Source: Falsiruegeria litorea R37
GTDB taxonomy: Bacteria > Pseudomonadota > Alphaproteobacteria > Rhodobacterales > Rhodobacteraceae
Length of the DNA stretch: 64,000 nucleotides
Reading direction: 5' to 3'
Assembly: GCF_900172225.1 (NCBI RefSeq)
Contig: NZ_FWFO01000001.1
Span: 1,302,001 to 1,366,000, forward strand
The notes under the pieces were generated by a model, which made no database searches, had not been told where the DNA came from, and saw only the letters and a list, made by a program, of their open reading frames with translations. Of the stretch, positions 1 through 3,837 are shown one piece after another. Position numbers and translations under genes: made by a program. Position 1 is the first letter of the stretch, and each line of letters starts with the position of its first letter.

Positions 1-132
1 GCCGATGAACCGCAATTTGGCCGAGCGCGACAACAGGTTGCGCATCGCCTTGCCATCGCGTTGGCGGACCGCACGAAAGAAGCGCCGGGCCACGGCTTCG
101 AGTTCGGGCGAGGGGGTGAAGGGGTCGCTCAT
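1..132 (-). CDS. NTF2-like/class III nucleotide cyclase paralog, N-terminal fragment (cut by window edge)
   Basis: Reading leftwards from ATG at 132 gives 44 codons that stay open to the window edge. They begin MSDPFTPSPELEAVARR, which closely matches the N-termini of the next three genes (MTDPFTPSPEL, MSNVRPSPEV, MSDIIPSPEL). Its ATG overlaps the TGA of the upstream cyclase as ATGA, so it is the fourth coupled member of the array. Only the start of the NTF2-like domain is visible. The cyclase domain is inferred from the paralogs and lies outside the window. Confidence 0.8.
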   Translation of the reverse strand, partial: MSDPFTPSPELEAVARRFFRAVRQRDGKAMRNLLSRSAKLRFIG

Positions 133-1103
133 GCGCGCCACTCCAGCCTGTGGATCAGATGCTCGCCTTCGAGCCCCTTCAAAGAAACCGATACGGGGTC
201 GCCAAAGGCAAAGTCCGCGTTGCCGCCGACCATGGCGCGTGTGGGGTCTGATACGCGGATTTCTTCGGGCGCGGCAGCGGCGGCCACGCGGGCGGCGGTG
301 TTGACCACCATGCCGATGTAATCGCCGTCGCGTTCCACGACGTCGCCGGTGTGGATGCCGACCCGGACCCTCAGGTGCGGTTCCTGGGTTTGGTCTTGCA
401 TCTTTTGTTGAATGCGGGTGGCGGCACTCAGCGCGGCAGAGGCCGAGGCGAAGGACGACAGGGTGCCATCGCCCAGCGATTTGACCAGGGTGCCGCCATG
501 TGCTGCGACCGCCGCGTCAGTCTCGGCCATGTGGGTCTGGACGATGCTGTTCCAGGTGGCATCGCCGGTGGCGGCGGCCAGGGCGGTGCTGTCGACGATG
601 TCGGTGAACATGACCGAGGCGATGCCGGTGTGCCCAAGGTCCAACGTCTCGGACTGTAGCGAGGCGGTCAGCTCTTCGATGCTGCGCGAGGTGTATCCCA
701 TTGCCTCAATATTGGGTTTGGGGTTGGAGTTGTGGACATGCACGATGCGCCAGACGGCGTTTTCGAGGGCAAATATGAACGTGTTGCGGAACGCGACGCT
801 CTTGTCGGCGTCGGGGGCGATGATGGTCATCGTCGCGAGCGCCCAGCCAAAGGTTCCGGCCTCGTAAGCGGTGACTTCGAGGTTTTCGGGAACCAGAACC
901 GCCTGATCGTCGCAGAAGGCGGCAAAAGTCTTGTGAAAGTCGGGTTCGGTCAGCAGTTCGCCCTCGTCCGAGCCGACATAGGTGATTGCGGCGGACTGCG
1001 AGAAGAGGTTGATCACCGGCTGTGTCTGGCGTGCCGCATAGGCGTTGAGCCAGCGTTTGGCGATTGCGGCCAGTTCGGGCGAGGGGGTGAAGGGATCGGT
1101 CAT
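129..1103 (-). CDS. NTF2-like (SnoaL-type) domain fused to class III adenylate/guanylate cyclase, copy 1
   Basis: A 324-residue soluble protein with no membrane segment. Residues about 10-145 form a SnoaL/NTF2-like domain ending in the 'WRIVHVHNSNP' strand. Residues about 165-320 form a class III nucleotide cyclase catalytic domain. Both metal aspartates are visible (FTDIVDS and LGDG), as are a base-contacting Lys (VKSLGDG), an Asp in GDYIG, and the transition-state Asn/Arg pair (VVNTAARV). The Lys/Asp pair favours ATP over GTP by family knowledge. I use ATG 1103, not GTG 1112, because it forms an ATGA overlap with the upstream stop and aligns with the paralogs. It lies in the middle of the array. 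Its sensed ligand is unknown. Confidence 0.88.
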   Translation of the reverse strand: MTDPFTPSPELAAIAKRWLNAYAARQTQPVINLFSQSAAITYVGSDEGELLTEPDFHKTFAAFCDDQAVLVPENLEVTAYEAGTFGWALATMTIIAPDADKSVAFRNTFIFALENAVWRIVHVHNSNPKPNIEAMGYTSRSIEELTASLQSETLDLGHTGIASVMFTDIVDSTALAAATGDATWNSIVQTHMAETDAAVAAHGGTLVKSLGDGTLSSFASASAALSAATRIQQKMQDQTQEPHLRVRVGIHTGDVVERDGDYIGMVVNTAARVAAAAAPEEIRVSDPTRAMVGGNADFAFGDPVSVSLKGLEGEHLIHRLEWRA

Positions 1104-2077
1104 GTCTGCCACACCAGCAAGTGGGTCGTATGCCGACCCTCTAACCCTTTGAGGTCAAAATCCTTTGAGCCGGAAAAGACGAATCCTTTGGTGTTTCCGG
1201 CGATCAGCCGTGTCGTGTCGGAGACCCGGATTTCCTGCGCCTGTGCGGTGGCAGTGATGCGGGCGGCCTTGTTGACCACAGTGCCGAAAAAGTCGTCTTG
1301 GGCCTGCATCACCTCGCCTGTGTGGATGCCGATGCGCACGGACAGGTGGGGCTCCTGGGTGTCGCTTTCCAGTGCGGATTGTATCTGTGTGGCTGCGCTC
1401 AGACAGGCGCGGGCGGACGGGAACGACGACATGGTGCCATCGCCCAGGGATTTGACGAATTGGCCGTCATGTTCGGTGACGATGGCCCGGATCATGTCGA
1501 AATGGGCTGCAATGATGGGCGACCAGGCGCGGTCGCCAAGGGCCGAGGCCAGCGCCGATGATCCGACGATATCGGTAAACATGATCGAGGCGAGGCCTTC
1601 GGTTTGGTCCAAAGCAAACCCGTCTTTTACGGCGGCGACGAGGTCTGCGATGGCGGGTTGCTCGACGCCGGTGAAATCCTCGTTCGGCGTGGGCACGGAC
1701 CCGTGGCGGTGGACGATCTTCCACGCGCCGTCTTCGAGTGTGAGGATCAGCGTGGTGCGGACCAGAAAGGAACGGTCCGGATGGGTTTCGAACGCAATCT
1801 CATGGGTAAGGCAAGCCCAGCCGGTGTTGCCGTTTTCATAGGCCTCGGCGAAATGCTCGACATGCTTGGTTACAGAGGGGATTGCCCCAAAGAACGCGCC
1901 GACACCCTCTTGTACGGCATGACCTGACCAGATTTCGTCTTCGGCGGTTCCGAAGAAAAGCAGATGATCCTCTTTGGTCATCAGGTTGCGCAGGTCATTG
2001 GGGCGTCGGTTCGGGACCGCTTCGATCCAGCGCCGGGCGATGGCCAGAACCTCGGGCGAGGGGCGGACGTTGCTCAT
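1100..2077 (-). CDS. NTF2-like domain fused to class III adenylate/guanylate cyclase, copy 2
   Basis: A 325-residue paralog of its neighbours with the same two-domain plan. The N-terminal SnoaL/NTF2-like half ends in 'WKIVHRHGSVPTP'. The C-terminal cyclase domain has FTDIVGSSALA and KSLGDG (metal Asp residues and Lys), DDFFG (Asp) and VVNKAARI (Asn, Arg), so it should be catalytically competent. ATG 2077 gives an ATGA overlap with the stop of copy 3 and is preferred to an upstream GTG at 2086. The N-terminal domain has diverged more than the cyclase domain between copies, which would fit one output with different inputs. That reading is inference. Confidence 0.88.
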   Translation of the reverse strand: MSNVRPSPEVLAIARRWIEAVPNRRPNDLRNLMTKEDHLLFFGTAEDEIWSGHAVQEGVGAFFGAIPSVTKHVEHFAEAYENGNTGWACLTHEIAFETHPDRSFLVRTTLILTLEDGAWKIVHRHGSVPTPNEDFTGVEQPAIADLVAAVKDGFALDQTEGLASIMFTDIVGSSALASALGDRAWSPIIAAHFDMIRAIVTEHDGQFVKSLGDGTMSSFPSARACLSAATQIQSALESDTQEPHLSVRIGIHTGEVMQAQDDFFGTVVNKAARITATAQAQEIRVSDTTRLIAGNTKGFVFSGSKDFDLKGLEGRHTTHLLVWQT

Positions 2078-3045
2078 CCCTGCCACTCTAGCCGATAGGT
2101 GGTGTGCTGACCCTCGAGCCCCTTGAGGCGGACCAGGGCGGGGTCGGAAAAGCGGAACTGAGGCGCGCCGCCGACCATGATGTGGGTGGCGTCGGACAGG
2201 CAGATGTCGCCGGGTGCGGCGATTGACGCGACGCGGGCGGCCTTGTTCACTACGGTGCCGAACATGTCGCCGTCCTGTTCCACCAGATCGCCGGTGTGCA
2301 ATCCGATGCGAATTTGCAGGCGCGGCTCGGTCGTGCTGTTTGAGATGATGTGCTGCAGTTCGGAGGCCGCAGTGAGGGCTGCCGTGGCCGAAGGGAACGC
2401 CGACATGGTGCCATCGCCAAGCGTTTTGACCAGCGTCCCGCCGTGTCGGGTGAGCACATCGCCCACTTGTTTCATGTGGGCCTGCACCGCAGTCGACCAG
2501 CGGGCGTCACCTAGCGTTTCTGCCAGCGCCGAACTGCCGGCGATGTCGGTGAACATGATCGTTGCCATGCCGGTTTGTGCCAGATCAACCGGCGATGTCA
2601 GGGCGGCCTCCAACAACTCCTCAAACCCGCGGGACTGATACCCCAAAGCGTCCATGTTCGAGACCGGGTTTGAGTTGTGCACATGAACGATCCGCCAGAC
2701 GCCCTTTTCCAGATGCAGCACAAAGGTAGAGCGAAAGGTGATTTCCTTGCCGTTTTCCAGCGATACACGCCCGCCGAACCATTCGACCCAACCAAGATTG
2801 CCGCATTCAAAGCCGCGGAAATCGTCCTTATCCCAAGAAAAGTTTGGAATATCTTCCATGTAACCGCCCATGCCCCGGCGCAGGGTATCATCGCGCCAGA
2901 TCTCGTCATGGGAGGAACCGATGTACCCCAAAGCGCTGTCTTCTGAGAAAAGGTTGAGCACCGCCTCTTTGTCGCCTGCCGCATAGGAACGGAGCCAGCG
3001 GCGAACGATGGCTCCAAGTTCAGGCGAGGGGATGATGTCGCTCAT
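2074..3045 (-). CDS. NTF2-like domain fused to class III adenylate/guanylate cyclase, copy 3
   Basis: A 323-residue protein and the first cyclase of the array in transcription order. The NTF2-like half has 'WRIVHVHNSNPVSN'. The cyclase half keeps FTDIAGSSALA, KTLGDG, GDMFG and VVNKAARV, so all catalytic and base-selecting positions are intact. There is no transmembrane segment or signal peptide, so it should act in the cytoplasm. The start lies four bases after the stop of the MBL-fold hydrolase gene, so the two are very likely co-transcribed. The product is probably cAMP on the Lys/Asp signature, though cGMP cannot be excluded. Confidence 0.88.
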   Translation of the reverse strand: MSDIIPSPELGAIVRRWLRSYAAGDKEAVLNLFSEDSALGYIGSSHDEIWRDDTLRRGMGGYMEDIPNFSWDKDDFRGFECGNLGWVEWFGGRVSLENGKEITFRSTFVLHLEKGVWRIVHVHNSNPVSNMDALGYQSRGFEELLEAALTSPVDLAQTGMATIMFTDIAGSSALAETLGDARWSTAVQAHMKQVGDVLTRHGGTLVKTLGDGTMSAFPSATAALTAASELQHIISNSTTEPRLQIRIGLHTGDLVEQDGDMFGTVVNKAARVASIAAPGDICLSDATHIMVGGAPQFRFSDPALVRLKGLEGQHTTYRLEWQG

Positions 3046-3049
3046 GACC

Positions 3050-3742
3050 TCATAGCGTGATGGCCTGCATGACCTGCGGTTCGATCACGTCGACACCTGG
3101 TAGACCTGCACGCAACTCGTCGGCGTTCTGTTCCAGGATCGGGAAGGTGCCATAGTGGCAGGGGATCACGGTCTTGAAGTTGAAGTAGCGCTTGGCGGCA
3201 TAGGCCGCGCCCTTCATGTCCATGGTGAAATGGCCGCCCGCCGACAGGATGCCGATGTCGGGTTTGTAGTAATCCCCCATCCAGTCCATGTCGGCCATGA
3301 TGTCGGTGTCGCCCGAGACGTAGAGCATCTTGCCCTCAGACGCGATCATGAAGCCCACCTCGGTGCCGCCGGTGCGGATGCCGTCGGGCGTGTTGAAGGT
3401 CGAGGAATGCGAGGCCGGGACCATCGATACCTTGATCCCGTTCAGATCCACGGTGCCACCCTTGTTGAAGCCAACGGTTTCGATGCCCTCGGTCTCTCCC
3501 CAATGCCCCATCAGGTCGTATTGGCCCACAACCGGCACGCCCAGCTTCTTGGCCAGCGGCAGGACATCGACAACGTGGTCGAAATGCACATGGGTCAGCA
3601 GGATGTGGGTGGCGCCTGCGACGGCGGCGTCGTGTTGATCCTCGGGCAGGGATGGATTGCCGGTCAGCCACGGGTCGATCAACAGGACCTGTCCTGCGGT
3701 TTCAATGCGAAAGCTGCCGTGTCCCAGCCAGATAACATCCAT
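3050..3742 (-). CDS. MBL-fold metal-dependent hydrolase (UPF0173 family)
   Basis: A 230-residue metallo-beta-lactamase-fold protein. The signature metal ligands are visible as LTHVHFDHV (HxHxDH) near residue 55, with further ligands in GDTDIM and the late IPCHYGTF segment, the usual UPF0173 pattern. ATG 3742 was chosen because GGAGA precedes it and the protein then begins directly with the first beta strand (MDVIWLGHG); a longer in-frame extension has no comparable site. It is the first gene of the cyclase array, four bases from copy 3. The substrate is unknown for this family. A role in breaking down the cyclase product is possible but unproven. Confidence 0.85.
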   Translation of the reverse strand: MDVIWLGHGSFRIETAGQVLLIDPWLTGNPSLPEDQHDAAVAGATHILLTHVHFDHVVDVLPLAKKLGVPVVGQYDLMGHWGETEGIETVGFNKGGTVDLNGIKVSMVPASHSSTFNTPDGIRTGGTEVGFMIASEGKMLYVSGDTDIMADMDWMGDYYKPDIGILSAGGHFTMDMKGAAYAAKRYFNFKTVIPCHYGTFPILEQNADELRAGLPGVDVIEPQVMQAITL

Positions 3743-3837
3743 CAATGAATCTCCTATTTCCTGTTGGCACGAGCCTAACACCGGTTACATAGAAATCCAT
3801 GGATTGGTTGCAGATTACCTTTTGGGGGATGCGAGCC

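Follow-up and report, generated by a model that had tools for sequence, protein, structure and literature searches.

The F. litorea R37 genome (Falsiruegeria litorea R37; 4.69 Mb on 18 contigs) contains a head-to-tail array of five minus-strand genes, each encoding an NTF2-like (SnoaL_3) domain fused to a class III cyclase domain in a protein of 323-325 amino acids. The array opens the stretch analyzed here, 64,000 nucleotides of contig NZ_FWFO01000001.1 (C1) from position 1,302,001 to 1,366,000, which we call the window, and it runs on beyond the window's first letter. We consider it probable that this locus is a multi-input cyclic AMP (cAMP) module, in which the paralogs would share one output and differ in what their N-terminal halves respond to.

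Copies 1 to 5 are 323, 325, 324, 324 and 325 amino acids long. Copy 1 (positions 2074..3045 of the window, sensor class I) is identified by Pfam matches to SnoaL_3 and Guanylate_cyc and by six catalytic residues. Copy 2 (1100..2077, class II) and copy 3 (129..1103, class III) are identified in the same way and also by an ATGA overlap with the preceding copy and by their place in a tree of such fusions. The first-pass annotation of this DNA had described three complete fusions of 324, 325 and 323 residues and the start of another on the minus strand, and our coordinates agree. Its count of 'at least four' recognized a real tandem array but was too low: once the flanking DNA is read, copy 4 (1..132 in the window; whole gene C1:1301158-1302132, class IV) is completed and is followed by copy 5 (C1:1300184-1301161, class V). 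The proposed coupling through ATGA stop/start overlaps holds at all four junctions, each overlap being 4 nucleotides; such overlaps are an ordinary feature of bacterial operons. Given the domain E-values and the presence of similar arrays in other genera, the arrangement is not a product of chance.

Both domains score above the curated Pfam cut-offs in all five copies (SnoaL_3, 45-65 bits against 22; Guanylate_cyc, 56-72 bits against 21.9), and both were matched in every one of 74 scanned proteins chosen from 108 fusions. These 108 proteins form our alignment, from which the short or cut proteins L067_1, L118_1, L120_1 and L121_3 were left out. In copy 1 numbering, the cyclase half carries D167 and D211, which we take to be the metal aspartates, K207 and D260, presumably the residues that specify ATP, and N267 and R271, presumably the transition-state pair. 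All six are kept in 5/5 copies, as the first-pass annotation had claimed for the three complete ones, and with the Guanylate_cyc match this complete set places the five copies among the class III nucleotidyl cyclases. More widely, all six residues are found in 104/108 aligned fusions, including 56/56 full-length array copies; the four fusions with an incomplete set (L114-L117) are single-copy proteins from metagenome bins. In three of these, L115, L116 and L117, binned as Cellulomonas, Chloroflexi and Actinomycetota, the Lys, Asp and Asn positions are occupied by Glu, His and His, and their substrate may differ from that of the other fusions.

The AlphaFold model of copy 1 has a mean predicted local distance difference test (pLDDT) score of 90.6 and a predicted template modeling (pTM) score of 0.55, with low confidence around residues 143-155. 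The best fold match of its cyclase half is Ma1120 of Mycobacterium avium, which together with Rv1900c/LipJ also tops the sequence matches of the cyclase domain (31-36% identity). Both resemble the array copies in having the ATP-specifying Lys/Asp and the transition-state Arg, but the matched chains lack an NTF2-like domain, and the name given to LipJ describes a fusion with an alpha/beta-hydrolase. K207 and D260 of copy 1 align with K101 and D157 of Ma1120, which specify ATP according to mutants described in the part of PMC4215837 available to us; in the same part, Ma1120 has Ala where the array copies have the transition-state Asn. Modeled alone, the N-terminal half has a pLDDT of 94.1, and its top fold match is 3f7s; AtzH, 3h51, the CaMKII hub and a SnoaL-like protein are also among the nearest folds, at 12-24% identity among the 50 matches listed. 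A sequence-profile search agrees (3h51, E 7.7e-6; 3f7s, E 4.3e-5), and this match, with the predicted cone-shaped alpha+beta fold, places the N-terminal half in the NTF2-like superfamily. These SnoaL_3/CaMKII-association-type proteins thus resemble the N-terminal half in profile and fold, and no cyclase fusion is found among the listed matches.

In a tree of 107 fusions, array copies of different genera group into six classes, I-VI, with several copies outside them (x below). The classes are named from the full-length tree, for which the identical proteins L062_1 and L138_1, from the same genome and both within the 108, were merged. The order I-II-III-IV-V occurs in F. litorea R37 and Falsiruegeria mediterranea. 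Elsewhere we find I-II-III-x-V (L136), I-II-IV-V (Tropicibacter), I-III-II-VI (L137 and L060), I-II-VI (Ruegeria marina), I-x-x-II-VI (L068 and L092), I-II-x-VI (L091), x-II-V (L070), II-IV-V-x (L086) and x-II-broken-VI (L121). Across these 13 arrays, the two-copy L078 being left unclassed, class I comes first in ten and never stands at another position, the last unit is class V or VI in twelve, and the inner units vary. We infer that the array copies are old, because six sensor classes are common to several genera. Recent duplication is ruled out by the identity of copies 2-5 to copy 1 (40-47%) compared to that of copy 1 orthologs from other species and genera (68-92%); the near-identity that the first-pass annotation had named as the mark of a simple duplication is therefore not what the copies show. 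The discrete sensor classes are under purifying selection, with a mean ratio of nonsynonymous to synonymous substitution rates (dN/dS) between closely related genomes that, taken copy by copy and half by half, lies at 0.04-0.21 (Nei-Gojobori, saturated pairs left out).

A signature of the array is that its two halves diverge differently. Compared separately, the sensor halves of the five copies (N, residues 1-132) have a mean pairwise identity of 36% and the cyclase halves (C, residues 157-320) of 52%, which bears out the earlier remark that divergence is greater in the NTF2-like halves. Between classes, identities are 30-45% for N and 48-58% for C, whereas within the six classes they are 68-79% for N and 58-73% for C, with N diverging less in five of the six and equally in class III. 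An important concern is that an invariant core of the C half may halt further loss of identity. Because such saturation could mimic the contrast, we fitted branch lengths separately for the two halves, using a single tree and models that allow rates to vary. Under LG+R4, LG+G4 and LG+C20+F+G4, stem plus backbone length divided by within-class length comes to 0.31-0.41 in the sensor half and 0.04-0.05 in the cyclase half, and 60 column bootstraps per half (LG+G4) give 95% ranges of 0.25-0.42 and 0.03-0.07, which do not overlap. Where two classes each reach at least 80% fixation at a site, the fixed residues differ in 206/541 cases for N (38%) and 44/593 for C (7%), a pairwise count over five classes from which class IV and the rows of L057, L058, L068, L092 and L136 were left out. 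This count and the class identities used a smaller class II; for the branch-length and bootstrap analyses, and for the approximately unbiased (AU) tests and class-wise motif counts given below, class II was enlarged by the single-copy fusions L106, L108, L110, L111 and L113.

As a control, nine clades were hand-picked from the C tree (support at least 0.9, at least four rows, three near-identical rows dropped from clade C9). Among them, fixed sites differ in 1056/2453 cases for N and 739/3081 for C. The three pairs of clades that share a sensor class differ at 2/59, 13/91 and 4/66 N sites and at 21/91, 30/104 and 5/62 C sites. When the clades belong to different classes, 36-60% of N sites differ, or 17-54% when C9 is in the pair.

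Several points weigh against a reading of these data in terms of distinct inputs. The classes were taken from the full-length tree, and the fixed tree used for branch lengths forces class clades. When pairs are chosen by their C identity alone, the two halves are conserved to much the same degree among clear orthologs (in ranges of 65-70, 70-80 and 80+, the mean N identities are 67, 76 and 89 and the mean C identities 68, 74 and 88), and pairs in the 55-65% C range mostly have N below 45%. If a site has to be fixed in all five classes together, the class-specific sites shrink to 8 in N versus 2 in C, although this count is superseded by the pairwise one. The trees of the two halves do not agree everywhere, and if copies exchanged their C halves, this could enlarge the N/C contrast, even though such exchange would also fit a module with several inputs. 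A class-specific N domain could instead reflect the binding of a protein partner. We are less sure that sensor halves are the better conserved within classes than that they evolve much faster between classes only, and the safe statement from these alignments is that, compared with cyclase halves, they show no faster change inside a class but far faster change from one class to another. With the cross-genus sensor classes, the branch lengths and the cyclase-only clade control, this pattern supports the suggestion, made in the first-pass annotation, of several inputs and one output.

C-half monophyly is not rejected for the two classes tested, II and V (AU p 0.705 and 0.423; 99 rows, quick trees), and for class II the tree holding the class together scored better than the free search. 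One tract stands out, in Seohaeicola zhoushanensis (L078:8033-9966), where two adjacent copies are 90-98% identical in DNA over codons ~201-280 and their N halves are only 47-58% identical; this is a clear case of recent gene conversion. In a scan for conversion tracts, this pair (L078_1/L078_2) is the only one of 90 within-array pairs to beat the best of 1265 cross-genome pairs. Domain swapping among array copies as a general rule is not supported, as the AU tests reject neither of the tested classes and only this one pair stands out. Concerted evolution was also rejected, since within-array identities are about the same as cross-genome paralog identities in the four comparisons made.

The fusion is uncommon, as had been supposed: copy 1 is matched at E <= 1e-50 in 15/394 family genomes, the source genome included. 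A scan of named genomes, of which the best 80 matches were kept, gave at least 79 loci, and we looked at neighbors in the 65 loci with a fusion among those listed, several of which may share a genome and some of which lie at contig ends. In 52/65 there is one copy only. The first-pass annotation had proposed recording copy number and operon partners across genomes; doing so yields 14 multi-copy loci (at least two copies on one strand; 12 of the 65, plus L136 and L137) with 57 copies in all, distributed as two copies at one locus, three at two, four at six and five at five. Besides F. litorea R37, five copies are carried by F. mediterranea, Ruegeria pomeroyi SZCCDBG043 and Ruegeria sp. XHP0148, four by Tropicibacter sp. 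Alg240-R139, Shimia aestuarii, Seohaeicola saemankumensis and Thiosulfatihalobacter marinus (one broken), and three by Ruegeria marina and Cribrihabitans marinus, so that the array recurs in other roseobacters. The 43 junctions between neighboring copies comprise 34 overlaps of 4 nucleotides (ATGA, once GTGA), four of 13 nucleotides, which depend on the chosen start codon, two spacings of +5 nucleotides and three gaps of more than 200 nucleotides. Two of these gaps, of 226 and 210 nucleotides between copies 2 and 3 of the Ruegeria arrays L068 and L092, interrupt the coupling, and possibly hold an internal promoter. The third sits at the broken copy 3 of T. marinus (L121:8721-9688), whose N half lies in a separate reading frame through a frameshift or an assembly error.

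The neighbors of the array are conserved as well. In F. litorea R37 it is flanked by a gene for an MBL-fold metal-dependent hydrolase of the PRK00685 type on one side (3050..3781, minus strand; NCBIfam NF001911, 224 bits against a cut-off of 144) and by a gene for a DoeA-like M24 hydrolase on the other (C1:1298996-1300168, after copy 5 and beyond the window). The MBL gene, with a likelier start at the inner ATG at 3742, ends 4 nucleotides from copy 1 and would be the first gene of the putative operon; 15 nucleotides separate copy 5 from the start of the M24 gene. Because the seven genes are co-oriented and closely spaced in their coordinates, they look like one putative operon. The M24 protein was rejected as a true DoeA (ectoine hydrolase), as its TIGR02993 score of 496 bits is below the cut-off of 613. 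An MBL gene adjoins the first copy in 14/14 multi-copy arrays, at ~110-160 nucleotides in L086 and within ~30 nucleotides in the other 13, and an M24 gene directly follows the array in 8/14. At the 65 listed loci the counts are 29 with an MBL gene upstream and 14 with an M24 gene nearby, and single copies also occur beside the MBL gene. In three family genomes (G236, G245 and G319; loci L145, L147 and L146) the MBL gene sits immediately next to the M24 gene and the neighborhood lacks an NTF2-cyclase, which suggests that the array was inserted into a pair of hydrolase genes that predates it. The order is MBL-M24-cyclase in G254, and in G065 the two hydrolase genes are separated by ~12 kb in which there is no NTF2-cyclase. 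The M24 protein is present at 71% identity or more in 7/394 family genomes.

The ends of many copies appear to carry a signal for the next one. A Shine-Dalgarno-like GGAG (141..144, minus strand) is embedded in the closing Leu-Glu-Trp codons of copy 3 and lies 8 nucleotides before the ATG of copy 4, and GGAG is found at 2/4 junctions of this array. Across the set (112 proteins, less two truncated ones and four loci that nearly duplicate others), GGAG in C-terminal Glu-Trp codons, mostly Leu-Glu-Trp, is present in 28/40 copies that have a close downstream copy versus 6/66 others (Fisher p 8e-11, with kinship among copies uncorrected); three of these six (L068_2, L092_2 and L121_2) are inner array copies. 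The spacing from GGAG to ATG is 8 nucleotides in 26/26 cases that have both GGAG and a 4-nucleotide overlap. The Glu codon of Glu-Trp is GAG in 31/33 followed copies versus 7/14 others, and therefore GGAG is not due to the peptide alone. Under a looser count by class, anywhere in the last eight codons, followed and other copies have GGAG in 8/12 versus 1/7 (class II), 3/5 versus 0/1 (class III) and 1/1 versus 1/13 (class V); class I runs contrary to the other classes, with 8/10 versus 2/2.

We favor a model in which each copy would be a soluble class III adenylate cyclase, with a linker of ~25 residues between an N-terminal NTF2-like domain (~130 residues) and a cyclase homology domain working as a dimer. 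The NTF2-like domain would probably take up a small-molecule ligand in the pocket of its cone, dimerize, or both, and its state would set the geometry of the cyclase dimer. With a shared output, cAMP made from ATP, and differing NTF2-like domains, several cues could raise one second messenger, and the cues may be linked to the substrates of the neighboring hydrolases. The genome has seven matches to a cyclic nucleotide monophosphate (cNMP)-binding domain, which could read the cAMP. Facultative heterodimers, the mixed dimers raised in the first-pass annotation, by which five genes would give up to fifteen cyclase dimers that integrate pairs of signals, strike us as rather unlikely. Class III sites are built from two cyclase domains (as given in the part of PMC6027212 available to us), the C halves of the copies remain ~50% identical, and coupled reading frames may favor assembly near the ribosome; however, the intact residues in 56/56 full-length array copies show no complementary loss as in obligate heterodimers, and 52/65 listed loci are single-copy, with the caveat that some of these loci reach a contig end and that more than one may come from the same genome. 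Obligate heterodimers themselves are unlikely because no full-length array copy has lost a catalytic residue, and homodimers could suffice because every one keeps all six.

Two further alternatives concern the sensor half. It could be only a dimerization or stability module in an array that is a gene-dosage or near-neutral expansion, in keeping with the CaMKII hub, an oligomerization module by its structure entry titles, among the nearest folds, with copy numbers that vary from 1 to 5 and with the broken N half of L121_3; we regard this as unlikely, as a dosage effect would not be expected to leave distinct sensor classes that purifying selection maintains in several genera. Alternatively, the sensor half could be a second, SnoaL/AtzH-like enzyme whose substrate or product the cyclase reports, and the array would then belong with the two hydrolase genes to an operon for catabolism. 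The nearest folds of this half include AtzH and a SnoaL-like protein, the MBL and M24 genes recur at the arrays, and they adjoin each other without a cyclase in three genomes, yet the fold matches are of low identity and the MBL gene is missing upstream in 36/65 listed loci, some at contig ends, and we find this idea quite improbable. A Pycsar-type anti-phage cyclase was rejected as very improbable indeed: the PycC matches are weak (18-43 bits) and limited to the shared cyclase domain, neither neighbor of the array matched any defense model, which leaves no effector, and the locus sits in a conserved chromosomal neighborhood. Extending the multi-input model, we speculate, with considerable doubt, that the locus is a sensor cassette array, in which NTF2-like modules of fixed identity would come, go and change places as coupled cyclase units, with class I usually at the head and class V or VI usually at the tail, most of these units carrying the next unit's ribosome-binding signal in their last codons, with products that mix as heterodimers to form a combinatorial cAMP integrator in marine bacteria.

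Parallels exist in other signaling proteins. In the part of PMC7730460 available to us, the ECF56 sigma factor SigG1 of Streptomyces tsukubaensis likewise bears a SnoaL_2 domain on a signaling protein, although there the domain is C-terminal and the protein a sigma factor. Receptor adenylate cyclases of Trypanosoma brucei (ESAG4/GRESAG4) form a large set of paralogs in which the class III catalytic domain is conserved and the receptor-like N domain varies, as far as the available part of PMC6027212 goes; these are eukaryotic membrane receptors with another sensor fold, and the likeness is an analogy only. A search of the open-access literature, with subscription journals mostly outside it and novelty thus unproven, showed, among the papers listed, no report of NTF2-like or SnoaL domains fused to class III cyclases, and the terms NTF2 and SnoaL are absent from the available part of PMC2447327.

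Many class III cyclases per bacterium are common, with 20 Guanylate_cyc matches in this genome, and what each senses is rarely known. Here, paralogs that differ mainly in their putative input domain are gathered in one putative operon, with natural one- to five-copy versions in culturable marine bacteria. Two questions thereby become open to direct test: which cues NTF2-like domains respond to, and whether cyclases that are translated together also mix.

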